Of a stretch of 49,551 bases of DNA, positions 13,484 through 31,621 are shown piece by piece. Each line of letters opens with the position of its first letter. Positions within the stretch are counted from its first letter, which is position 1. Origin of the DNA: Candidatus Cloacimonadota bacterium (lineage in GTDB: Bacteria; Cloacimonadota; Cloacimonadia; Cloacimonadales; Cloacimonadaceae); assembly GCA_020532085.1 (NCBI GenBank), contig JAJBAV010000019.1:1-49551 (forward strand), given 5' to 3'. The translations under genes and the position numbers were made by a program. Below the pieces are notes generated by a model. The model had not been told where the DNA came from. It made no database searches and worked only from the letters and a program-made list of their open reading frames with translations.

Positions 13484-13700
13484 GCAGCGACCAAAGCCGC
13501 GACACCCACCATTGTTGGACGGGTGTCATTCCAGGGTGGGGTCTTGTTTGACTATTCCCGCCAGGCCTGGATTCCGGGGCCCCTTCCCCGGAATGACAGA
13601 AAGGTGGGGTTTTGTTTGACTATTCCCGCCAGGCTTGGATTCCATCTCTTCGCGCCGAAAGCGCTCCGTTCCGGAATGACAAAATGAAAAATTCCTTGCC
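13484..13700. repeat. Short intergenic palindromes and a 40-bp direct repeat
   Basis: A unit reading GGTGGGGTCTTGTTTGACTA then TTCCCGCCAGGCCTGGATTCC occurs at about 13535-13575 and again at about 13603-13643. It is interleaved with CATTCC...GGAATGAC palindromes of the family seen at 2900-5000. It precedes the start of the sorting-domain gene by about 60 bases. Confidence 0.75.
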
Positions 13701-13761
13701 AAGATCGGCAGGGATGATAAATGTGGTTTTTAGCCTTAAATTCCCACAAGGAGAAACGATA

Positions 13762-15189
13762 ATGAAAACCAAGCTTTCGCTTTGCAAGCGGCTGGCCGGC
13801 ACCCTGATGCTGGTGCTGATGGCCGGATTGCTTTCCGCGCAAACCCCTTTGTTTACTTTTAACGTGGATGACCTCGAAGCCACCGAACGCAACACGGTCT
13901 GGCTCTTCGATTTTGACAGCCCTTCCTTTCCCACCCATGACGGGGACTGGTACAGCTTCGGCGACACCCCGCTATATCTCGCTTATCCCTTTTTGCACTA
14001 CTACGCCGAGGACATCGTGCGCATGGGCAATCCCACCAACGAAGGCGGGCTGACCGTGATCACCTGCGGCCAGGAAAGCATTCCCTTCACCGACGACCCC
14101 AGCCAGATCGGCATCACCTTCTCACCTTTTGGGCTCATCGATCTGGACCAGGTGAATCTGGTGAATCCGGGCAATCCCTGGCAAACCCCGGGCGAATCTG
14201 GAGACATCCGCACCTATTCCGGCTCCAGCGGCTACATCACTTTTGGAGGTGAAAACAAACTCCGCATCCTGGATCTGGAATATGTGATCACCACCCCCTA
14301 TCCCACCGGACAGGAAATCCACGACTTCATTCAAACCCTTCCCTACTCCCTGCCCTACGGCTGGGGCACAACCGAAAATATCGGTCCCGGGATCTTTTAC
14401 GGCCAGACCGGCTACGGCACCGGAATTGTGGATGTGTTCAACAGCGATCCCGCCTGGGCGGCGCTGTTCGAGGACGTGGGCCATGTGGTCACCATCGAGA
14501 TGCGGAACATCGTTTCCCGCACCACCCTGAACTCCACCTACCACGATTTTGACATGCTGCTCTATGCCGGCACCGAGCCCAACGTCCCCGTGGTGTTGAG
14601 CGGCTTCACCGCCGCGGTCAACGCCGCCAACCAGCCGGTGTTGAACTGGAACACCGCCTCCGAGAACGACCTGGTCGGCTTCCGGGTGCTGGGCTCCACC
14701 GCTTCGGCCATGGCTGACGCCATCAACCTCACCCCAGTCCTGATCCCGGCCCAAAACTGCAGCTGCGGCGCTGACTACAGCTTCACCGCCTGGGAATTTG
14801 ACACTCCCGGCACCTACTGGTTCTGGCTGGAAAGCCTGGACATGGTGGGGACAAGCGACTTCTTCGGCCCCGTCTCCGTGACCGTTGGCGCCACCCAGAC
14901 CCCCGCCCTGCCGGAGCGCAGCAGCCTGGGCAGCGTCTATCCCAACCCCTTCGCCGGCGGCGCCACGGCCAGCATCCCCGTCGAGATCAAAGCCGGCGAC
15001 AGCGGCGAGCTAAGCATCTACAACCTCTCCGGCCAGCGCGTGGCCTCCTTCCCAGTGCAGCAGGGCAGCCAAACCCTCTCCTGGAATGGCCTGGACCTCA
15101 GCGGCAAAGCCTGCGCCAGCGGCATCTATTTCTACCGCCTGAGCGCCGGCAATCACCAGGAAACCAAAAAACTCATCATCCTTAAATAA
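13762..15189 (+). CDS. Secreted protein with type IX (Por) C-terminal sorting domain
   Basis: The 475-aa protein starts at the ATG preceded by AAGGAG (13749-13754); the frame is open upstream but through repeats. A signal peptide (about 1-27, ending LLSAQ) precedes a beta-rich central region of unknown family. A fibronectin-like stretch (about 275-375, VVLSGFTAAVN...NWNTASENDLVGFRV) follows, then a C-terminal domain from about 390 (SLGSVYPNPF, LSIYNLSGQRV, SGIYFYRLSAG, ending KKLIILK). That ending is the standard type A sorting signal for export by the type IX system and surface attachment. Function of the passenger is unknown. A strong terminator follows. Confidence 0.85.
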   Translation: MKTKLSLCKRLAGTLMLVLMAGLLSAQTPLFTFNVDDLEATERNTVWLFDFDSPSFPTHDGDWYSFGDTPLYLAYPFLHYYAEDIVRMGNPTNEGGLTVITCGQESIPFTDDPSQIGITFSPFGLIDLDQVNLVNPGNPWQTPGESGDIRTYSGSSGYITFGGENKLRILDLEYVITTPYPTGQEIHDFIQTLPYSLPYGWGTTENIGPGIFYGQTGYGTGIVDVFNSDPAWAALFEDVGHVVTIEMRNIVSRTTLNSTYHDFDMLLYAGTEPNVPVVLSGFTAAVNAANQPVLNWNTASENDLVGFRVLGSTASAMADAINLTPVLIPAQNCSCGADYSFTAWEFDTPGTYWFWLESLDMVGTSDFFGPVSVTVGATQTPALPERSSLGSVYPNPFAGGATASIPVEIKAGDSGELSIYNLSGQRVASFPVQQGSQTLSWNGLDLSGKACASGIYFYRLSAGNHQETKKLIILK

Positions 15190-20338: not shown

Positions 20339-22801
20339 ATGCGAAGATTTTCGGCTTTCCTTCTGCTCGCGGCGCTGCTGATTGCGGCTCCCGCCCTGGC
20401 GCGGGCAAAAACCCCGCAGAGGGTGGTGCTGAAAGTTTTTGAGCTGCCGGATCCCCGCAAAACGGATGCCTATTCGCGGGCCAATCTGGCGGTGGTGGAG
20501 GCCTTCCGCGAGCGGTTCCCCCACATTGAGCTCAGGGCCTTTTCCGGCATCCAGATCGAAAACATGGACCTCGACGCCGGGCCGCTGATGGCCATCGCCG
20601 GAGGGGTGGCGCCGGATATCCTCTATGTGAATTTCCGCCAGAGCGACACCTATATCCAGAACAATTTCCTCTATCCGCTGGACGGATTTCTGGCTTCCGA
20701 AGACCCTGAAGCGCTGTCTCTGCGGGTGGAAAAGCCTGTCTGGCAGGTGATCCGCCGCGCGCGCAAGGGTGAACAGGCGCAAAAGACCTGGATGCTGCCC
20801 TACGAGACGCTGGTGCGGGTGCTGATGTACCGCAGGGACGTGTTTCGCCGGGCAGGGCTGGACCCGGACAAACCTCCCCGCACCTGGGACGAGTTTTATG
20901 CGTACGCGCGCCGGCTTACCGATCCGGAGCAGGGGGCCTGGGGCACGGTCTTGGCCTCCGGGCCTCAGGCTGCCTACGATTGGCTGCCTTTCTTGTGGGG
21001 CGCGGGCGGTGACGCGGTCACCTACGATCCCCAAATGCAGGAATGGCGGGCTTCTTTTGCCGGTCCCGAGGGTGTTCGGGCTCTGGAATTCTACCTGCGG
21101 CTCGTGGCCACCAAATGGCGTGACAACCAGGGCCGGGAACAGACCGGTTTCGCGCTGCGCGAAGGAGATTGGGGCTATCTCTGGCAGGAAGGCAAGATCG
21201 GCATGCGGATGGACTATCTTTCCCAGCAAAACCTTGGCGGAGCCTACGATCCGAACCTCTATGGCTTCGCGCCCGCCCCGGCCGGGCCTTCCGGACGCGG
21301 CGGCAGCGAGATCAACTGCCGCATGATGGGCATCTTTTCCGGGGCCGGGATCAGCAACAACTCCGGCCTGGGCGACCGCGATCCCGAGGCAGTGCGCCAG
21401 GCCGCCTGGGAATACATCCGCTTTTACGATTCCGAGCAGGCGCGCCGGATCCGCACGAAGGTGATGGTGGACAGCGGCTATGGGCGCATGCAAAACCCTG
21501 TGTTTCTTAAGCGTTACGGCTATGATGAATATCTGCGCTACGCGCCCGCTGGCTGGCTGGAAACCTTCGAGACCGCCATGCGCGAAGGGCGTCCGGAACC
21601 CTTTGGCGACAACTGCCAGAAGGTGTACGAATACATGACACATCCCCTTGAGGAGCTGGTGGCGCGGGACCTTAAGGGCAGGCTGCCACAGGACCAGGAG
21701 CAGCGGCGGAAGCAGATCGCGTCCGTGCTGAGCCAGGGTGAAGCGCGCACCAACCAGGAAATGATAGGCCGGATCCCGCCCGAGACCCAAGCCTTTCGGG
21801 AACGGCTGGCGATGCTGATCGCCAGCGTGATCCTGCTGGCCTTCTGCTTCACCCTCTGGCGGGTTTGGAAACTCCTCACCCCGGAAGCGAAAAGCTCTGC
21901 CAAATTGAGATTTAACCACCGCTTTTGGGTGGTGTTGCTGCTCGCCCCGGCGGTGCTTGCCGTTCTGGTCTGGAAATATCTGCCCATGGTTTCGGGCTCG
22001 GTGATGGCCTTTCAGGATTACCATATCGTGGGGGCCAGCCCCTGGATCGGTTTTGGCAATTTCGCCGCGGTGCTGTTTGATCCGGCCTGGTGGGCGGCTG
22101 TGGGTAAAACACTGTATTACATGGCCTTGCTGCTGGGGCTGGGGTTCCTGCCGCCGCTGGGCCTGGCCATTTTACTGCAGGAGGTTTCGCGGGGGAAAAT
22201 GCTCTACCGGGTGATCTACTATCTGCCCGCGGTGATCAGCGGCGTGATCGTGATCTATCTCTGGAAGCTGCTTTACGACCCCTCCGACGCCGGCATCCTG
22301 AACCAGCTTCTGCTGGCCCTGGGCCTGCCCAAAAGCATGTGGATCAAAGACGAAACGCTGGCCATGCTCTGCGTGGTGTTGCCCACCGTCTGGGCGGGCG
22401 CGGGGCCGGGTTCGCTGATCTATCTGGCCGCGCTGAAAAACATCCCCCACGAGCTCTATGAGGCCGCGGACATCGATGGCGCCGGCTTCCGGGCCAAACT
22501 CCGCCACATCGTGCTGCCCAGCCTGAAAGGGCTGATCATCATCCAGTTCATCTCCGCCTTCATCGTGGCGGCGCAAAGCAGCGATTTCATTCTGGTGATG
22601 ACCTTTGGCGGCCCGAATGAGGCCACCCGGGTGGCAGACCTGATGATCTTTGAGAAGGCCTATCTCTACCTCCGTTTTGGCTTGGCCACGGCGATGGCCT
22701 GGATCCTCAGCCTGCTGCTGATGGGCTTCACCGTCTGGCAGATCAAATATCTGTCCCGCATGGAGTTCCGCACCGCCAGAGATGACCGGGAGGCCGCATG
22801 A
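20339..22801 (+). CDS. Fused sugar-binding protein and ABC permease
   Basis: This 820-aa fusion combines two normally separate parts of a sugar importer. Residues 1-23 are a signal sequence (MRRFSAFLLLAALLIAAPAL). Residues 25-480 are a family 1 (UgpB/MalE-type) solute-binding protein with WDEFYAYARRLTDPEQGAWGT and a late GRMQNPV segment. A linking helix (about 488-507) enters the membrane, and residues 525-810 form a MalF/UgpA-type permease with the EAA loop EAADIDGAGF (about 707-716). The binding protein would thus be tethered outside the membrane to its own channel. The ATG at 20339 is chosen for the signal; the site is weak and 20318 is possible. No ATPase gene is nearby, so a shared MsmX-type ATPase is expected. 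Confidence 0.85.
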   Translation: MRRFSAFLLLAALLIAAPALARAKTPQRVVLKVFELPDPRKTDAYSRANLAVVEAFRERFPHIELRAFSGIQIENMDLDAGPLMAIAGGVAPDILYVNFRQSDTYIQNNFLYPLDGFLASEDPEALSLRVEKPVWQVIRRARKGEQAQKTWMLPYETLVRVLMYRRDVFRRAGLDPDKPPRTWDEFYAYARRLTDPEQGAWGTVLASGPQAAYDWLPFLWGAGGDAVTYDPQMQEWRASFAGPEGVRALEFYLRLVATKWRDNQGREQTGFALREGDWGYLWQEGKIGMRMDYLSQQNLGGAYDPNLYGFAPAPAGPSGRGGSEINCRMMGIFSGAGISNNSGLGDRDPEAVRQAAWEYIRFYDSEQARRIRTKVMVDSGYGRMQNPVFLKRYGYDEYLRYAPAGWLETFETAMREGRPEPFGDNCQKVYEYMTHPLEELVARDLKGRLPQDQEQRRKQIASVLSQGEARTNQEMIGRIPPETQAFRERLAMLIASVILLAFCFTLWRVWKLLTPEAKSSAKLRFNHRFWVVLLLAPAVLAVLVWKYLPMVSGSVMAFQDYHIVGASPWIGFGNFAAVLFDPAWWAAVGKTLYYMALLLGLGFLPPLGLAILLQEVSRGKMLYRVIYYLPAVISGVIVIYLWKLLYDPSDAGILNQLLLALGLPKSMWIKDETLAMLCVVLPTVWAGAGPGSLIYLAALKNIPHELYEAADIDGAGFRAKLRHIVLPSLKGLIIIQFISAFIVAAQSSDFILVMTFGGPNEATRVADLMIFEKAYLYLRFGLATAMAWILSLLLMGFTVWQIKYLSRMEFRTARDDREAA

Positions 22802-25092
22802 GCATCATTGGCAAAGTGGGGCGGCGCTCAACCAAGGTCCGGGCGCTGAACCTGAGCATCCACCTGGTGCTGCTCCTCGGCGCCATTACCATGGTCTATC
22901 CCTTTCTGCTGATGATCTCGGCCTCGCTGCGCAGCAACGTGGACAGCGGCCGCCTCAGCCTGCTGCCACAATATCTGCACAACGACGAGGCGCTGTTCCA
23001 GAAATACTTGGAATCCCGCTACAATGAAGAAAGCAGCCGTCTGGCGGACAACCATGCCGGACGCTGGCTCTCCTTTGCCGAGTCGCGTTTGCCTCAGAAG
23101 CTGCATCCCTCTCTGCTGAAGGATTGGCAGGAATTCCTGGCTGCCCGGCCGCAGTCAGTTTACGATTACTACGTGGCCGAACATTACGGAAGAGGGGTCT
23201 ATCCGCTCAACCAGCGCCGCTACCGCAAACTGCTCCGGCAGGAAAACGGCAACGACCTTACCGCTTTCAACCGGCGCTACAACACCGGCGCCCAGAACTG
23301 GGAACAGATCGTGGTGGAGGAAAAGGAGATCCTGGGCCGCAACTACGTGAGCGTGAACGACGGCTATCTGGGCCGTTTCCAGGCTTTCAAGAAAGACGTC
23401 GGAGAGCGCCACCGCAACCATGTGAACCTCGACGGCGCCTTTGTGCAGATGGAGCTGGCCCCCGCTTACGGCGGCGATCTGGCCGCCTTCAACGCCGCCA
23501 GCGGTTTGGAGCTGAACTCTTGGCAGGAAGTGGTTTTGAGCGAGTTCTGCCCCGCGGAGGGAGATCCTCTGCGACCCGCCTGGCTACACTATGTGCGGGA
23601 AGCCCTGAACATCCATCACATCAGCCTTGATGCCTCTGCAGACCCCGCCTTTCAAGCCATGCTGCGGGAAAAATACGCCAGCATCTCGCTGCTCAACTCC
23701 ACCTGGCACACAAGCTATGCGGATTTTAGCGCGGTGCGCGTCCCCAGGCAGATCCCGGACAGCGGCGCCATGGTGGAGGACCTCACCTGGTTCGTGGAAA
23801 ACGCCACCGCGCCGGAACATCTGCGGGTGCGCAACCTGGGCAACGAATTCCGGGCCTGGCTGCGGGAAAAATACACGAACGTGGCGGCCCTTAACGCCTC
23901 CTGGGAGCAGGGTTTTGACCGCTGGGAGGAGATTCCGCTCCCGGCCACCACTCCGACGGATAATCTAGCCTGGCAAAGCGACTGGCTGGAATTTGCCCAG
24001 GGCCCGGGCCAAAGCTGGCTGGAATTGCTGCCCAGCGCTCAAAGCGAGTGGCTGCTTTTGCTTGCGCAGCGTTTCCCCGGGCAGGGCGGTAAACTGGATT
24101 TGGGGAAGGTAAACCAATATTTGGGAAGCAATTACAGATCCGAAGAAGATATCTATCCCAGTCCCCGCCTGCCCCGCGATCCCCACCCGGCAGAGCTTTG
24201 GCGGGAATTTGTGGCCCAGCGTTCCACTCCCCATCAGTTGAAGTTTTCGCCCGCAAAGGAAGCGGTGCAGACCTGGCGGGAATTTTTGCGGGCAAGATAC
24301 GCTGCCACAGATAGCTTGAACCGCGCCTGGCATCTGGTCCCGACAAGCTTTGAGGATATCCCGCTACCCGTCCGGCAGATCGAGGCGCAAACCTTCCTGA
24401 AGCACAAAAGCGAGATCAAAAGGGAGTTTCTCACCCGCAATTACGCCATGGTGCTGGACCAGATGTTCAACGACGCCCGCTCCCTGCGCAACACTGCCAT
24501 CTATACCCTGCTGGCCATCCTGCTGGCCGTTACCGTCAATCCCCTCGCGGCCTACGCCCTCAGCCGCTTCAAGCCCCGGCTCAGCTATCAGATCATCCTG
24601 CTGTTCATGCTCACCATGGCTTTCCCGGCGATGGTGATGGGCATTCCGAACTTCCTGATGCTAAAGCGTTTGAACCTGCTCAACACCTTTTGGGCGCTGG
24701 TGCTTCCCGCCGCCGCGGACGGATATTTCATCTTCCTGCTAAAAGGCTTTTTCGACAGCCTGCCGCGCGAGCTCTATGAAAGCGCCAGCCTCGACGGGGC
24801 CGGGGAATTCCGCCTCTTCTGGCAGTTCACGCTCTATCTTTCCAAACCCATCCTGGCCGTGATCGCCCTCGGAGCCTTCAACGCCGCCTACCGCAATTTC
24901 CTCTTCGCCTTCATCGTTTGCCAGGACCAAAGCATGTGGACCCTGATGGTGCACATCTACGAACTGATGCAGCGGGCCAGCCTCTCGGTGGGCTACGCGG
25001 CCCTGGTGATCGCCGCCATCCCCACTTTGGCGGTCTTCGTCTTCTTCCAGAATATCATCATCAAGGGGATCGTGATCCCGATGGAAAAATAA
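22798..25092 (+). CDS. MalG-type sugar permease with ~500-residue extracytoplasmic insertion
   Basis: The 764-aa second permease overlaps the fusion gene by ATGA. TM1 (about 20-42) is followed by an unusual ~510-residue loop (about 48-555) before the normal core (about 560-764), which has the EAA loop ESASLDGAGEF (about 660-670) and ends KGIVIPMEK. MalG-like proteins usually have about 280 residues and a short first loop. The loop holds roughly six degenerate repeats of the type FxxWLRxKYxxxxxLNxxWxxxxxxWxxIxLP; the clearest are at about 285-320, 350-385 and 494-530. These look like the KYG...LN..WGT segments I know from GH42-like glycosidases. The loop is probably a substrate-capture domain; this is inference. 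Confidence 0.85.
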   Translation: MSIIGKVGRRSTKVRALNLSIHLVLLLGAITMVYPFLLMISASLRSNVDSGRLSLLPQYLHNDEALFQKYLESRYNEESSRLADNHAGRWLSFAESRLPQKLHPSLLKDWQEFLAARPQSVYDYYVAEHYGRGVYPLNQRRYRKLLRQENGNDLTAFNRRYNTGAQNWEQIVVEEKEILGRNYVSVNDGYLGRFQAFKKDVGERHRNHVNLDGAFVQMELAPAYGGDLAAFNAASGLELNSWQEVVLSEFCPAEGDPLRPAWLHYVREALNIHHISLDASADPAFQAMLREKYASISLLNSTWHTSYADFSAVRVPRQIPDSGAMVEDLTWFVENATAPEHLRVRNLGNEFRAWLREKYTNVAALNASWEQGFDRWEEIPLPATTPTDNLAWQSDWLEFAQGPGQSWLELLPSAQSEWLLLLAQRFPGQGGKLDLGKVNQYLGSNYRSEEDIYPSPRLPRDPHPAELWREFVAQRSTPHQLKFSPAKEAVQTWREFLRARYAATDSLNRAWHLVPTSFEDIPLPVRQIEAQTFLKHKSEIKREFLTRNYAMVLDQMFNDARSLRNTAIYTLLAILLAVTVNPLAAYALSRFKPRLSYQIILLFMLTMAFPAMVMGIPNFLMLKRLNLLNTFWALVLPAAADGYFIFLLKGFFDSLPRELYESASLDGAGEFRLFWQFTLYLSKPILAVIALGAFNAAYRNFLFAFIVCQDQSMWTLMVHIYELMQRASLSVGYAALVIAAIPTLAVFVFFQNIIIKGIVIPMEK

Positions 25093-25103
25093 AGAGGTTT
25101 CAG

Positions 25104-28100
25104 ATGCACAACGAAAAGATCCACCTCACCCGGATCAAACGCCTGCTGGAGCGGCAGAAACCGCTTCTGATCAAGGACAAGCTGCCCCTCGAGGCCGGAT
25201 TTTCCGCCACCGGCGGGGATTTTCAGCCCCTGGCGCTCAACGCTGTCTGGGGCAAGCCTTGGCAGACCGGCTGGTTCCGGATCAGCGGCAGGATACCGGA
25301 AAGCTTTGCGGGCCAGGATTACAGGCTGCTCTTCGACTGCGACGGCGAGGCCTGCTTGCTGCTGGATGGAGTTCCATACCAGGGTTTCACGCCCAAGGTG
25401 GACTGGTATCACAAGGCCGCCAAGAATCTGCTGCCCCTGGCCTCCATCCGCAAGCCCGGAGAGGATCTCAGCCTGCTGATCGACGCCTCCGCCAACGACC
25501 TCTTCGGCGCGCAGAAAGAGGAATACCGCCTGCGCGAGTGCGCCCTTGTTACCTTTGATGAGCCTCTGTATCAAAGCTTGCTGGACATCGCCCTGCTGCT
25601 GGATCTGGCGGAAGCATTGCCCGAAAAAACTGTCCGCCGCCAGCGTCTGATCTTTGGCCTGGACCAGGTTTGCAATGCCTGGAACAGCGATCAGGAGAGG
25701 GTGAATGCCATCCTGGGCGACCTGCTGTCCGCGCCCGCCCATGCCAGCGCGCTCACCGCCTTCAGCGTGGGGCACGCGCATCTCGATCTGGCCTGGCTGT
25801 GGCCACTGAGAGAAACCCGGCGCAAGGGTGCCCGCACCTTCGCCAACGCGCTGAGGCTGCTGGAGCAATATCCCAGCTACGTATTCGGCGCTTCCCAGGC
25901 CCAGCTGTACCAGTGGATCAAAGCAGACCATCCCGCCCTTTACGCTCAGGTCAAGGAGCGGGTGAAAGAAGGCCGCTGGGAGATCCAGGGCGCTTCCTGG
26001 GTGGAGTTTGACACCAATCTCATCTCCGCGGAATCGATAATCCGCCAGTTCATGTATGGCAAACGCTTCTTCGAGAGCGAGTTCGGCCAGGCCCCCCGCG
26101 TTTTGTGGCTGCCCGACTGCTTCGGCTTTTCCGGCAATCTGCCCCAGTTCCTCAAAGGTTGCGGCGTGGATTGGTTCATCACCCAGAAACTAAGCTGGAA
26201 CGAGACCAACACCTTTCCCCACCACCTCTTCGTTTGGGAGGGGATCGACGGTTCGCGGGTGCTGGCGCATCAGCTTCCCACCAACGATTACAACTTCTCG
26301 AACAACCCCTCCTCTTTTCTGGAAACGGAAAAACGCTATGCCCAGAGCGAGCTCTGCGACGCCTTTCTGAACCTCTACGGGATTGGCGACGGCGGCGGCG
26401 GGCCCACCCGCGACCACATCGAATATGGCCTGCGCCAGCAAAGCCTCGAGGGCGTGAGCAAATTCCGCAGCGCCAGCTCGGCGGATTTCTTCGCCCACCT
26501 CTCCGGGCTGGATCCCAGCCAGCTGCCGGTGGCCTATGGCGAGCTCTATCTGGAATTTCACCGCGGCACCTACACCACCCAGGCCCGCATGAAACAGGAT
26601 AACCGCGGCAGCGAGAAGCTCCTGGCCGCGGCTGAGTTCATGGCCGTGCTGGCCGGACATGCCTATCCGGAACCGCTGCGGCGAATCTGGCAGGACACCC
26701 TGCTGCTGCAATTCCACGACATCATCCCCGGTTCTTCGATCACGCCGGTTTACGAGGATGCCCACACCATCAGCGCCGCCAATCACGCGCAGCTGAAGGA
26801 CTACCTGGCCGCTACGGCGCGCGAGCTTGCGGATAGCGGAACACCTTGCCAGGAAGCCAGTTATCTGGTGTTCAACCCTTCCAACCAGGAACTGGATGAA
26901 TGGCACGCCTTCCCCCAAGAACTCCAGGGCCTGGTGCCGCTGAATGAATACAGCACCGAACTGGCCTCTCTGGAAACGGAAAACGCCCTGTTGGCCAGGA
27001 TCCGGGTACCGGCCTGGGGTTGCCTGCTGCTGCAATTCTCCCCAAACGGCTATCTGCCCAAAACCGAGGCCAGTACAGCTTCCCTGACCCTGGAGAACCG
27101 CTTTCTCAAGGCGGAATTGACCGAGACCGGCGGCATCAGATCCATCTGGGATAAAGAACTGGAGCGCGAACTGCTGATTTCGGAATCCAACCTGCTCCTG
27201 CTCTGGGAAGACGAGCCCAACAACTGGGGCGCCTGGGACATCAATCATTTCTATCGCGACACGGCACCCCAAACAGCCGGCGGCGCAACTTTAAACCAAG
27301 CCCTCAGTTTCACGCTGGAAGGGGAGTTCAGCCGCGTGGTGCAGGATATCCGCATCGGCAAATCCAGCCTGCGCCAGACCATCGAATTGCGCTGTGATGA
27401 CCGCCTGCTGCGCGTCAGCCACGAGATCGCCTGGCAGGAAAAGCACAAAATGCTGCGCACGCATTGGTTCACCGCGGTGCACAATGGCATCGCCAGCTAC
27501 GGCATCCAGGCCGGCGTGATCAAGCGCAGCAGCAAGCCTAAAAGCGCGGTCGAGGCAGCCCAGTTTGAGGTTCCCGCCCAACGCTTTGCGGACCTTTCCC
27601 AGCCGGATCACGGCTGCGCGCTGCTCTGCGACGTCAAATTCGGCTACCGCATCATGGACGGCCAGATGGAATTGAACCTCCTGCGCAGCCCCGCCGACGT
27701 CGATCCCACCGCCGATATCCACAGCCACAGCTACAGCTACGCCTTTTATCCCCACAGCGGCGATTACGAACACAGCGATGTTTTCCGCCAGGCCGAGCGC
27801 CTGGCCCACAGCCTGATCGTGGTGCCGCTGCAAACCCTGCCCGAAAAGTTGCCGCAGCCCCTGTTCCGCTTGGACAGCGACCACGTGAACCTGGATACGG
27901 TCAAGCCCGCGGAGGACGGCGGCGGCATCATCCTGCGCTTCCACGAATACAAGGGCCAAAGCGGCACCGCGCTGCTTTACTGCGCCCAAACCCAGTCCCA
28001 GGCAAGAGTTACCGACCTGCTGGAGCAACCGCTGGAAGCGGATCCGATCCAACTCGACCCCTACTATCCGCTCAGCCTGGAATTCCGGCCTTTCGAGGTG

Positions 28101-28130
28101 AAAACCATCCGTTTGGAGGAACTGCCATGA
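25104..28130 (+). CDS. GH38 alpha-mannosidase
   Basis: This 1008-aa cytosolic enzyme (no signal peptide) hydrolyses terminal alpha-linked mannose. The zinc site is visible as HAHLD (His226 and Asp228 likely ligands), and the nucleophile as Asp338 in WLPDCFGFSGNLPQ. The middle domain contains RGTYTTQARMK and ILPGSSI-like HDIIPGSSI, both usual in the family, and the C-terminal beta-sandwich runs to residue 1008. The N-terminal ~200 residues are a jelly-roll seen in the bacterial type. RBS is AAGAGG, 11 bases after the permease stop. With GH20 and GH130 it suits removal of mannose from N-glycan fragments inside the cell. Confidence 0.95.
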   Translation: MHNEKIHLTRIKRLLERQKPLLIKDKLPLEAGFSATGGDFQPLALNAVWGKPWQTGWFRISGRIPESFAGQDYRLLFDCDGEACLLLDGVPYQGFTPKVDWYHKAAKNLLPLASIRKPGEDLSLLIDASANDLFGAQKEEYRLRECALVTFDEPLYQSLLDIALLLDLAEALPEKTVRRQRLIFGLDQVCNAWNSDQERVNAILGDLLSAPAHASALTAFSVGHAHLDLAWLWPLRETRRKGARTFANALRLLEQYPSYVFGASQAQLYQWIKADHPALYAQVKERVKEGRWEIQGASWVEFDTNLISAESIIRQFMYGKRFFESEFGQAPRVLWLPDCFGFSGNLPQFLKGCGVDWFITQKLSWNETNTFPHHLFVWEGIDGSRVLAHQLPTNDYNFSNNPSSFLETEKRYAQSELCDAFLNLYGIGDGGGGPTRDHIEYGLRQQSLEGVSKFRSASSADFFAHLSGLDPSQLPVAYGELYLEFHRGTYTTQARMKQDNRGSEKLLAAAEFMAVLAGHAYPEPLRRIWQDTLLLQFHDIIPGSSITPVYEDAHTISAANHAQLKDYLAATARELADSGTPCQEASYLVFNPSNQELDEWHAFPQELQGLVPLNEYSTELASLETENALLARIRVPAWGCLLLQFSPNGYLPKTEASTASLTLENRFLKAELTETGGIRSIWDKELERELLISESNLLLLWEDEPNNWGAWDINHFYRDTAPQTAGGATLNQALSFTLEGEFSRVVQDIRIGKSSLRQTIELRCDDRLLRVSHEIAWQEKHKMLRTHWFTAVHNGIASYGIQAGVIKRSSKPKSAVEAAQFEVPAQRFADLSQPDHGCALLCDVKFGYRIMDGQMELNLLRSPADVDPTADIHSHSYSYAFYPHSGDYEHSDVFRQAERLAHSLIVVPLQTLPEKLPQPLFRLDSDHVNLDTVKPAEDGGGIILRFHEYKGQSGTALLYCAQTQSQARVTDLLEQPLEADPIQLDPYYPLSLEFRPFEVKTIRLEELP

Positions 28131-29593
28131 TCCCCCGTCCAAAACAAATGCGCGTGTTCAAAAAGCGCTTCTGGATGACCTCCAGGATCGATTACCAGCG
28201 CAACGCGGAGCTGCCTGAGAAGCTCTTCCGCTTTCTCGCGGCGGACCTCGACGCTTACTATCACAAGCTGATCGGCGTGGGTTTCCTCGACGACGACCAC
28301 AGCACGAGCGTCAGGTTCACCCTCGCCCCCTTCACCAGGAAAGTGCCGCCCGAATATTATTTCCTGAAGGTGGACACCCTGGACATCCAGATCCAGGCTG
28401 AATCGCCAAGCGGCCTCGTCCACGCGTTGCAAACCCTGAAACAGCACCTGTACCTGGCCTATTATTACGTCCAGGACGAGTTTGGCGAACCCGGCGACCT
28501 GCCCTGCCTGGAGATCCGGGACTGGCCCAGCTATCCCTGGCGGGGGCTGCATCTGGACGTGAGCCGACATTTCTTTGACTTCAGGTTCGTGCAGCGTTAT
28601 CTGGACTGGATGTCGCGGTCCAAGCTGAACAAGTTTCACTGGCATCTTTCCGATGACCAGGGCTGGCGCCTCGAAAGCCGGAAATTCCCCCGCCTGCATG
28701 AAATCGGCGCCTGGCGCAAAGAGGCTGACGGCAGCGTCCACGGCGGCTGGTACACCCGCCGCCAGGTGCAGGCGGTGCTGGATCACGCGGCCCTGCGCGG
28801 GATCGAGGTGATCCCCGAGATCGACATCCCCGGCCACGCCATGGCGATACTGGCCGCCTATCCTGAACTGGCCTGCGTTCCGCGGGATTTCGAGGTCCCC
28901 TGCGTCTGGGGCATTTTCGAAGACATCCTCTGCGCCGGCAAGGATGAGGTGATCGATTTTTTGAAAGAGCTGTTCAGCGAAGTGGCGGAACTCTTTCCCG
29001 GCCAGTATGTGCATCTGGGCGGCGACGAAGCTCCCAAGCAGCGTTGGAAAGACTGCCCCCACTGCCAGGCCCGGATCAAAAACCAAGGCCTCGCCGGTGA
29101 GGAAGAGCTGCAGGGCTGGCTGGTGAAAACCCTCGCCCGGCACCTGCGGGGCCTGGGCAAAACGGTGATCGGATGGGACGAGATCCTGGACGGCCAACCG
29201 TGCCAGGATCCAGTGGTGATGGCCTGGCGCGGTGACGGGATCGACGCCGCCCGCAAAGCTCACGACAACGGCAACCGCTACATCCTCTGCCCCTACACCA
29301 AGCTCTATTTCGACGCCCGCAACAATGAGTACGAAACCATCGGCACCGACCAGATCATCCTTTGGGGCGATGTGCTCAAATTCCGGTTCCAGGACTACAG
29401 CTTTCAACGCAAGGAACTCCTGCTGGGAGCCCAGGCCAACGTCTGGACCGAACATCTGGCCAATAAAGCAGACCTGAAGGAAAAGGTTACCCATCGCCTT
29501 CGTCCCCTGGCGGAAATTCTCTGGAATGGCGAACCCGTCGAAGACGTCCGGGAATTCTGGGATCGCTGGAGAGATCTGAATTTCACGCTATGA
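28127..29593 (+). CDS. GH20 beta-N-acetylhexosaminidase
   Basis: The 488-aa enzyme removes terminal beta-GlcNAc or GalNAc using substrate-assisted catalysis. The catalytic Asp300-Glu301 pair lies in YVHLGGDEAPK, preceded by the family strands RGLHLDVSRHFF, LNKFHWHLSDDQGWR (about 165-180) and EIDIPGHA. It has the small N-terminal domain and the TIM barrel but no signal peptide, so it acts in the cytosol, unlike many GH20 enzymes, which are exported. Start overlaps the GH38 stop by ATGA, so translation is coupled. Confidence 0.95.
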   Translation: MIPRPKQMRVFKKRFWMTSRIDYQRNAELPEKLFRFLAADLDAYYHKLIGVGFLDDDHSTSVRFTLAPFTRKVPPEYYFLKVDTLDIQIQAESPSGLVHALQTLKQHLYLAYYYVQDEFGEPGDLPCLEIRDWPSYPWRGLHLDVSRHFFDFRFVQRYLDWMSRSKLNKFHWHLSDDQGWRLESRKFPRLHEIGAWRKEADGSVHGGWYTRRQVQAVLDHAALRGIEVIPEIDIPGHAMAILAAYPELACVPRDFEVPCVWGIFEDILCAGKDEVIDFLKELFSEVAELFPGQYVHLGGDEAPKQRWKDCPHCQARIKNQGLAGEEELQGWLVKTLARHLRGLGKTVIGWDEILDGQPCQDPVVMAWRGDGIDAARKAHDNGNRYILCPYTKLYFDARNNEYETIGTDQIILWGDVLKFRFQDYSFQRKELLLGAQANVWTEHLANKADLKEKVTHRLRPLAEILWNGEPVEDVREFWDRWRDLNFTL

Positions 29594-30552
29594 AACGCCA
29601 CCCCGGCAATCCGCTGATCACCAGGCGGGACATCGTTTCCAGCCATCCCGCCCTGCGCGACGTTTCCTCGGTCTTCAATCCCGGCGGCACTTGGTTCGAG
29701 GGGCAAATCCTCCTCCTGCTGCGGGTGCAGAACCGCGCCCGGGAAACCTTGTTCGTGAAAGCCTGGTCGGAAAATGGCGTGGAATTCCGCGTTGAGGGGG
29801 AACCGCTGCCGCTGCTGGGCTTGGAAGCCTGTCCCCACCTGATTTACCACGTTTACGATCCCCGCATCACCCATCTGGAAGGTATTTACCACGTGATCTG
29901 CGCCCTGGATACCGATCAGGGCTGCTGCCTGGGCTGGTTTTCCACTCCGGATTTTGCCGCTTTGGATTTTCGCGGCCTGGTTTCGGCTGCCGACACCCGC
30001 AACGGCGTCCTCTTCCCGGAGCGGATAGGCGGGCGCTATCTGAGGTTCGAACGCCCCAACACCACGATGATGGCCGACGGAGTTAAAACCGGGTCCCGCA
30101 TAGTCTGCTCCTCATCGGAAGACCTGCTGAACTGGTCTGCCCAAGAGGAGGTGTTTTCCGGCCGGCCCCACTTTTGGGATGAACTGGTCGGTTCCGGTCC
30201 GCCGCCGCTGAAAACCGCGCAGGGTTGGCTGCACCTCTATCACGGCGTGGCCACCCATTTCGGAGCCGCAAATATCTATCAGGCAGGCGTTTCCCTGCAT
30301 GATCTCAAGCGACCCTGGCTCACCCTCGCGAGGGGTAGATACAATGTTCTGGAACCCCGCGAAAGCCATGAACTCTGCGGCCAGGTGCCCAACGTGGTTT
30401 TCCCCACCGCCGCCCTGGCACTGCAAACCGACAGCCGCGGTTTTGTGGACCCAAGCTCCGATATATACGTTTATTACGGCGCGGCCGATACCTGCGTCTG
30501 CCTCGCCACCACCAACGTTGAAAAACTTTTGGAGGCCGTCCATGCGCCCTAA
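29590..30552 (+). CDS. GH130 beta-mannoside phosphorylase
   Basis: The 320-aa five-bladed beta-propeller enzyme uses phosphate to release mannose 1-phosphate from beta-mannosides. Family markers are the RHPGNPLIT start, YDPRIT with the proposed acid Asp90, NGVLFPERIGGRYLRFERPN (about 136-155) and a final YYGAADTCVCLATT. GH130 includes enzymes for mannosyl-glucose, mannooligosaccharides and mannosyl-N-acetylglucosamine. The neighbouring GH38 and GH20 favour Man-GlcNAc, the core left by N-glycan trimming, but the subfamily cannot be fixed from sequence alone. It overlaps the GH20 stop by ATGA. Confidence 0.93.
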   Translation: MKRHPGNPLITRRDIVSSHPALRDVSSVFNPGGTWFEGQILLLLRVQNRARETLFVKAWSENGVEFRVEGEPLPLLGLEACPHLIYHVYDPRITHLEGIYHVICALDTDQGCCLGWFSTPDFAALDFRGLVSAADTRNGVLFPERIGGRYLRFERPNTTMMADGVKTGSRIVCSSSEDLLNWSAQEEVFSGRPHFWDELVGSGPPPLKTAQGWLHLYHGVATHFGAANIYQAGVSLHDLKRPWLTLARGRYNVLEPRESHELCGQVPNVVFPTAALALQTDSRGFVDPSSDIYVYYGAADTCVCLATTNVEKLLEAVHAP

Positions 30553-31621
30553 AACACTTGCCGCATTGTTGTTAACGCTCTGCGGAACCCTGTTCGCGGA
30601 GACTTTTCCCGTTCCGGGCCTGCCCTTCGCTCCGCTTTCCTATCCCTGTTTTCCAGCCCCTGAAACCCCGCGCATCGATGGCTGGATCGATGACCCCGCC
30701 TGGTCCGCCGCCCCTTGGAGCGCCAGCTTCACCGATATTGAGGGCAGCCTAAAACCCTCTCCCCACTTGGATACCAGGTTTAAAATGCTCTGGGACGGCG
30801 AGGGCCTCTACATCGCCGCCAGGCTGGAGGAACCGCAGCTCTGGGCCACCCTCACCGAGCACGACGCCGTGATCTTTTGGGACAACGACTTCGAGGTTTT
30901 CCTCGATCCGAACGGCGACACCCACCACTACTTCGAGCTGGAGATCAACGCCCTGAACACGCTTTGGGACCTCTTTCTGGTGCAGCCCTACCGCGACGAA
31001 CACAGCTCCCTAAACGGCTGGGAAGCCCACGGCGCCAAAACCGCGGTCGGCCTCGAGGGCACCCTGAACGATCCTTCGGACCTCGACACAGCCTGGAACT
31101 TGGAGATCTTCCTGCCCTGGCAGGCTGTGGCTGAATTGGCTGGAACGTCCTGCCCGCCGCGCTCAGGCGACTACTGGCGGATCAATATCTCGCGGGTGCA
31201 GTGGACCACTGAAGTGGCGGAGGGCAACTATCGCAAAGTGGCCGGAATTCCTGAATTCAACTGGGTTTGGAGCCCTCAGGGCCTCATCAACATGCACTAT
31301 CCGGAACGCTGGGGCCTGGTTTGGTTTATGGACGCCCCCAGTCCAGACCGCGCTTGGGAACCTTCCCTGCCCGAGATCCTGCCCGCGGAAGAATACCTGC
31401 GCCAGGTGTATTACGCCCAAAAACAACACCTGCTGGATCACGGCAGCTATTCCATCTCCACTTCTGAACTGGGCCTGGCTCCTTTTCACCACCGGGGAAA
31501 GATCCACCTGCCCCGGCTGGAAGCCACTTCCCGCTCCTTCTGCGCCACCCTGGAAACCGGGGACCTTCCCACCCTGGTCATCACGCAATCCGGACGCCTG
31601 ATCCGGCTTCCGCTCCGGTGA
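30542..31621 (+). CDS. Secreted CBM9-like carbohydrate-binding protein
   Basis: The 359-aa protein has a signal peptide (about 1-19, ending LFAETF). It is followed by a family 9 carbohydrate-binding-like domain (about 40-250): PRIDGWIDDPAW, YIAARLEEPQLWA, DNDFEVFLDPNGDTHHYFELEINALNT and WNLEIFLPW are the usual landmarks. The remaining ~100 residues are unassigned. It starts inside the 3' end of the GH130 gene with GGAGG 6 bases upstream, so it belongs to the operon and is its only fully exported product. It may bind the glycan outside the cell. The final base of its TGA is the first base of the 71-bp palindrome. Confidence 0.85.
   Translation: MRPKTLAALLLTLCGTLFAETFPVPGLPFAPLSYPCFPAPETPRIDGWIDDPAWSAAPWSASFTDIEGSLKPSPHLDTRFKMLWDGEGLYIAARLEEPQLWATLTEHDAVIFWDNDFEVFLDPNGDTHHYFELEINALNTLWDLFLVQPYRDEHSSLNGWEAHGAKTAVGLEGTLNDPSDLDTAWNLEIFLPWQAVAELAGTSCPPRSGDYWRINISRVQWTTEVAEGNYRKVAGIPEFNWVWSPQGLINMHYPERWGLVWFMDAPSPDRAWEPSLPEILPAEEYLRQVYYAQKQHLLDHGSYSISTSELGLAPFHHRGKIHLPRLEATSRSFCATLETGDLPTLVITQSGRLIRLPLR

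Follow-up and report, generated by a model that had tools for sequence, protein, structure and literature searches.

The P2 domain of MalF, which has an Ig-like fold and about 180 residues, is a large periplasmic domain of a CUT1 permease; in the E. coli MalFGK2 importer it stands next to a diffusible binding protein. P2 lies between TM3 and TM4 of MalF (PMC2246101) and, according to papers cited in PMC8134467, it communicates substrate availability. On the MalG side, Noll et al. 2008 (PMC2246101) described a region of ~500 hydrophilic residues, of unknown function, between TM1 and TM2 of MalG1 and MalG2 of Thermotogales, where MalE is encoded by a separate gene. Fusion of the binding domain to the permease is seen in OpuA and GlnPQ, which belong to other transporter families (PMC11065425 and PMC8025302). 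As to cargo, the ABC-NG/NgtS importer of S. pneumoniae takes up mannose oligosaccharides of the N-glycan type, and the abstract of that publication describes no arm (PMC5215778).

The window, i.e. the whole stretch of DNA analysed (49,551 nucleotides), is contig C19 of a 2.8-Mb genome, which its named relatives assign to Candidatus Cloacimonadota. A single frame without internal stops, 22798-25092(+), encodes a 764-aa permease and is part of an apparent operon, 20339-31621(+), in which the fused binding protein/MalF-like gene and the arm permease gene are followed by genes for GH38, GH20, GH130 and CBM9-like proteins:

20339..22801, + strand: partner with signal peptide, substrate-binding domain (SBP_bac_1, E 7e-24), extra TM and MalF/UgpA-like permease (PF00528, E 4e-11; UgpA/MalF models)
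22798..25092, + strand: MalG/UgpE-type permease with a TM1-TM2 repeat insert (ORF; Pfam/NCBIfam; AF2 model)
22831..22926, + strand: TM1, residues 12-43 (AF2-model helix; N-terminus conserved family-wide)
22996..23220, + strand: repeat 1, residues 67-141 (repeat HMM)
23221..23448, + strand: repeat 2, residues 142-217 (repeat HMM)
23449..23649, + strand: repeat 3, residues ~218-284 (repeat HMM)
23650..23847, + strand: repeat 4, residues 285-350 (repeat HMM)
23848..24048, + strand: repeat 5, residues 351-417, the strongest GH42-like unit (HMM E 2.2e-15; Pfam GH42 at 342-401)
24049..24273, + strand: repeat 6, residues ~418-492 (repeat HMM)
24274..24441, + strand: repeat 7, residues 493-548, continuing into the pre-TM2 helix (repeat HMM; AF2 helices 525-535 and 537-558)
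24475..25089, + strand: permease core, residues 560-764, TM2 onward (PF00528 at 583-758; MalG/AlgM2 fold match)
25101..28130, + strand: GH38 alpha-mannosidase, no obvious signal peptide (Pfam E 2e-87)
28127..29593, + strand: GH20 beta-N-acetylhexosaminidase, no obvious signal peptide (Pfam E 3e-100)
29590..30552, + strand: GH130 mannoside phosphorylase (Pfam E 5e-37)
30542..31621, + strand: CBM9-like protein with an apparent signal peptide, start inferred (Pfam CBM9_1 E 2e-11)

The initial annotation, made from the DNA alone, described this protein as a normal ABC permease core whose first two TM helices are held apart by a very large extramembrane insertion, and in these respects it was right. 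The Pfam domain BPD_transp_1 (PF00528) is found at residues 583-758 (E 2e-10), the protein having one such core; residues ~540-760 resemble MalG, UgpE, SugB and AlgM2 by family models and by sequence matches to PDB entries (AlgM2, MalG and SugB); and Foldseek, given the whole protein, returns MalG-type cores (3rlf_G and 4xtc_N, E about 1e-6). The EAA coupling loop is present at residues ~657-688, as placed by eye on the MalG alignment (ELYESASLDGAGEFRLFWQ, aligned to LEEAAALDGATPWQAFR of MalG), and is conserved in the family. The gene is best explained as encoding one permease of an oligosaccharide ABC importer of type I (CUT1), the one on the MalG side. One OB_MalK gene is located elsewhere in the same genome, and at a related locus, L053, a MalK-type ATPase gene is adjacent. 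In the AlphaFold2 model TM1 spans residues 12-43 and the next membrane helix residues 560-591, which leaves ~516 residues in between; from permease topology, this arm would be periplasmic.

Two statements of the initial annotation have to be corrected here. It held that the large loop of MalF is in a different place. MalF TM3-TM4 corresponds to MalG TM1-TM2, however, and the TM2 region of our protein (residue 545 on) aligns to MalF from residue 294 on, at about MalF TM4; the insert thus occupies the loop equivalent to P2, on the sister subunit. Judged by position, no functional analogue is closer than MalF P2, but it belongs to MalF and has no repeats, whereas the arm described here is a solenoid of GH42-type units on the MalG side. 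The insertion was also said to have no described counterpart, whereas the Thermotogales MalG1 and MalG2, published in 2008, likewise carry a large hydrophilic TM1-TM2 region and constitute the closest architectural precedent, although their binding protein is encoded separately and not fused as at our locus. An 873-aa MalG encoded beside a MalF-like gene (genome G464, contig C16, L139:4897-7515), probably from a member of the Thermotogota, fits the published description, with a ~600-residue, coiled-coil-looking insert between TM1 and TM2. Our repeat HMM found no match in this one insert, so that the two types of insertion at the same site are, on sequence grounds, probably independent. The MalG-side periplasmic loop would then be a recurrent site of large insertions, in parallel to P2 on MalF.

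The insert consists of seven repeats of ~70 residues, helix-helix-turn-helix-strand, with the motif FRxWLxxKY..LNxxW..F.EIxLP..P...DW..F and the unit consensus FRKFLKEKYGDLEALNRAYGTSYTSFDEIPLPEEEPIENLALREDWEEFVRERLE; the units begin near residues 67, 142, 220, 285, 351, 422 and 493. A repeated unit of this kind had been read from the DNA, and its reality was confirmed: when an HMM was built from repeats of the 45 family members that lie outside the Cloacimonadota/Delongbacteria set, aligned with a general repeat model, it recovers all seven units (E 1.8e-6 to 2.2e-15; matches start at residues 67, 142, 224, 285, 351, 434 and 493), while none was recovered in 1000 shuffled inserts, the top score being 7.8 bits. 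AlphaFold2 confidently predicts a folded, helix-rich repeat solenoid, both in the full protein (69 sequences; mean pLDDT 90, pTM 0.84, with 93-96 across much of the insert) and in the insert alone (pLDDT 93.0, pTM 0.88), each unit being made of a strand, a helix of 12-15 residues, a helix of 8, a short turn, a helix of 11 and a strand. An unfolded loop is ruled out by this model, and the Ig-like fold of P2 was not found in the insert. With the insert alone as query, no PDB entry matched at E 0.001 or better and MalF was absent from the matches listed; the top local matches were single units in GH50, GH42 and GH167 enzymes (e.g. 9whd over 39 columns at 1.0 A, probability 0.99), and the viral structure library gave no match. 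The array is therefore an assembly absent from solved structures, built of a known small element.

The kinship with GH42 enzymes noticed in the initial annotation also held. The GH42 model PF02449 matches the permease in three stretches (E 1.9e-15), of which the best, residues 342-401, spans profile positions 145-210 of 376 only, and the unit profile matches GH42 structures (4oif 172-230 and 1kwg 159-196) just past the acid/base region. Each repeat is, by profile comparison, homologous to one non-catalytic stretch of ~40-60 residues of GH42 beta-galactosidases and other GH-A enzymes. Unlike these enzymes, the insert carries the unit in tandem and shows neither a catalytic TIM barrel nor the acid/base and nucleophile glutamates; the short span of the Pfam match, the solenoid model and the lack of a whole-fold match rule out a catalytic domain in the loop. 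When ten genomes were searched with the unit profile, the readable multi-copy carriers were permeases of the insert-bearing family, and the single-copy carriers that were read were large glycosidase-like proteins, such as a GH42-type enzyme in the distant genome G128 (identified by eye); in the window's own genome, at E 1e-4, nothing matched beyond the 764-aa permease gene. The simplest history would be that a GH42-type fragment was captured and duplicated in tandem, after which the family spread. Amplification of a piece of a sugar-cutting enzyme could in this way give a transporter a new repeat fold. A literature search, confined to papers outside subscription, found no published GH42-permease architecture.

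Frames of the full 764 aa occur in seven other genomes of the same genus (71-87% identity), and similar long frames in many other families. A frameshift or gene fusion artefact, which the initial annotation had named as a possible refutation, is thereby ruled out. The relatives, found at 80 or more loci in a family that is probably larger, come from Cloacimonadota, Delongbacteria, Lentisphaerota (including Victivallis vadensis DSM 14823), Kiritimatiellota, Verrucomicrobiota, Planctomycetota and Elusimicrobiota, and from G128. At least four repeats were detected in 90 of the 91 members analysed, over at least seven phyla. Repeat-arm permeases are thus a real, widespread and undescribed family, a large one that reaches at least seven phyla and includes the cultured V. 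vadensis. The TM1-TM2 loop (equivalent of residues 60 to 540) varies from 218 to 635 residues, clustered near whole-repeat steps; five repeats were detected in 40 proteins, seven in 37, six in 10 and other numbers in few, these counts being HMM detections, with some long proteins containing degenerate or undetected units. The 622-aa forms of Cloacimonadota are shorter by 142 residues, which equals two repeats with the register kept, and since they nest among forms with 6-7 repeats in the core tree, loss is likelier than gain. One five-repeat branch (L036) falls outside this nested group, and thus the repeat number changed more than once. Such a natural series of arm lengths offers a way to learn how, in type I importers, the periplasmic loops function together with a tethered binding domain. 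Unusual members are the G128 homologue (L045:5972-7483), the shortest with 503 aa and two detected units, and a very divergent 837-aa member (L098:10001-12511), on a long branch and with a long loop, in which only five repeats were recognised. A paralogue, L173 (genome G525, contig C50), has three or more repeats, and ~45 additional residues lie within its permease core.

Successive genes of the operon overlap or directly adjoin one another, suggesting that their translation is coupled. Enzymes of families GH38, GH20 and GH130 that lack an obvious signal peptide are also encoded in other Cloacimonadota operons, and their genes are found at 14-16 of the 52 loci from the genome collection that have 5 kb or more of downstream DNA. 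We infer from such enzymes that an oligosaccharide of the N-glycan type is imported and digested in the cytoplasm; the cargo of the window's importer is probably an N-glycan-type manno-oligosaccharide, the same class as that of ABC-NG/NgtS. Other loci have other enzymes, a PL8 lyase at a Phycisphaerae locus and SGSH-type sulfatases with a GH123-like gene at an Elusimicrobiota locus, so that the arm is not associated with a single sugar. A Delongbacteria locus adds a MalK-type ATPase, GH130 and GH38. Host-type glycans could plausibly be what the annotated loci have in common, and the importers to which the family is linked would take up fragments of N-glycans and, probably, of glycosaminoglycans.

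The last 4 bases of the partner gene are shared with the permease gene; the partner's start at 20339 is inferred, the ORF being open from 20249. The substrate-binding domain is tethered at the N-terminus of its product, whose own MalF-type loop is short. OpuA and GlnPQ are not known to have a repeat arm. That the insert-bearing permease stands beside a tethered binding protein is borne out at 64 of the 66 loci that offer 2.4 kb or more of upstream DNA, where the fused gene is present; at the other two the binding protein and the MalF-like protein are in separate frames, and at none is the partner absent. Whether homologues always have this neighbour has thus to be answered with a qualification, since there are these two loci and since in G128 the arm permease and the fused partner are both present but unlinked (the probable partner, L147:3408-5813, being on another contig than L045). 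Across 148 relatives the two mostly co-occur in the same genomes. The converse rule, that a fused binding protein needs an arm, is ruled out by fused SBP-permeases of 762-763 aa encoded beside an ordinary 278-aa MalG in a genome of the same order (G067) and one of the same class (G113). Tethering does not require the arm, which is a trait of one transporter lineage. Such pairs, seen at L144:949-4703 and L145:2118-5261, make up a second transporter type, with a tethered binding protein and without an arm.

The divergence of the insert is best accounted for by that of the binding domain: when both permease cores are controlled for, the partial r is 0.73 among seven-repeat forms (n=15) and 0.36 among five-repeat forms (n=24), in species that are few and related and with both regions evolving faster than the cores. 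At the 15 loci that have all the genes, it is 0.57 for the binding domain, -0.04 for GH38 and 0.25 for GH20, although these two enzymes diverge about as fast as the insert. This co-divergence is suggestive of contact or a shared function of the two regions.

We propose, by analogy with MalF and with about an even chance of being right, that the arm is a P2-like dock on which an importer of complex glycans positions its tethered binding protein. A ~70-residue non-catalytic element, present once in GH42/GH-A glycosidases, would have been multiplied in tandem within the first periplasmic loop, enlarging it to a rigid, helix-rich solenoid next to the mouth of the pore; this arm, like P2, would hold and orient the binding domain above the entrance, perhaps also signalling when the domain is loaded, and the imported manno-oligosaccharide would be cut in the cytoplasm by GH38, GH20 and GH130. 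Docking is favoured by the P2-equivalent loop, the confident model of the insert, the linkage to the partner, the co-divergence, an insert dN/dS of about 0.2 (see below), the occurrence of the readable repeat arrays in permeases, the variety of enzymes encoded nearby and the signalling reported for MalF P2. It is disfavoured by the variation in repeat number (mostly 5 or 7), unexpected under a strict docking geometry, by the existence of fused systems with an ordinary MalG and by the difference in fold between the arm and P2. The data fit it somewhat better than the capture or filtering device suggested in the initial annotation.

A form of the latter idea, which we consider unlikely, is that the glycosidase-derived repeats offer a surface that weakly binds oligosaccharides and feeds them to the binding domain or excludes wrong ones. 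The unit is indeed related to sugar-active enzymes, several neighbourhoods are devoted to glycan degradation, and a shared cargo would also make insert and binding domain diverge together. But the same shared cargo predicts that GH38 and GH20 track the insert, and both do so less than the binding domain; moreover, what the repeats borrow from the enzymes is a short stretch and not the catalytic barrel, and the conserved KY, LN, W, P and DW..F look structural. A fusion of the two readings, in our judgement a doubtful one, is that the dock moved from MalF to MalG, built from the duplicated GH42-type fragment, and that the arm contacts long or branched glycans, with the repeat number tuning cargo size; if so, ABC importers of Cloacimonadota, Lentisphaerota and their relatives would have a modular, enzyme-derived, glycan-guiding arm.

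Another possibility is that the arm is a lineage-specific expansion, a folded but dispensable loop of little importance for transport. In eight same-genus genes the insert has a median dN/dS of ~0.20, compared with 0.05 for the core (mean dN 0.287 vs 0.041); it is under purifying selection and evolves faster than the core. The faster rate, the tolerated changes in length and the apparently unrelated inserts at the same site would all suit a dispensable loop, but such a dN/dS and the retention of the repeats in nearly all members over so many phyla make it improbable. Least probable is a periplasmic spacer or bridge to the cell wall, the outer membrane or a glycan porin, for direct glycan passage between the membranes and with a reach set by repeat number: extended inner-membrane proteins do span the periplasm in other systems and the solenoid varies by whole units, but the annotated neighbourhoods showed no recognisable conserved outer-membrane gene and the array returns to TM2, which anchors the arm to the membrane at both ends.

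Some further observations concern single loci. At L110:15453-16742 a separate soluble binding protein gene lies near the fused SBP-permease, and this importer may be served by two binding proteins. At L017 (G066), L044 (G042), L071 and L103 the permease or its partner is split by in-frame stops or frame changes, which may reflect assembly error or decay. Elsewhere in the window, 13612-15189 encodes a secreted protein whose C-terminus forms a sorting-type domain (YPNPF...GIYFYRL...KKLIILK).
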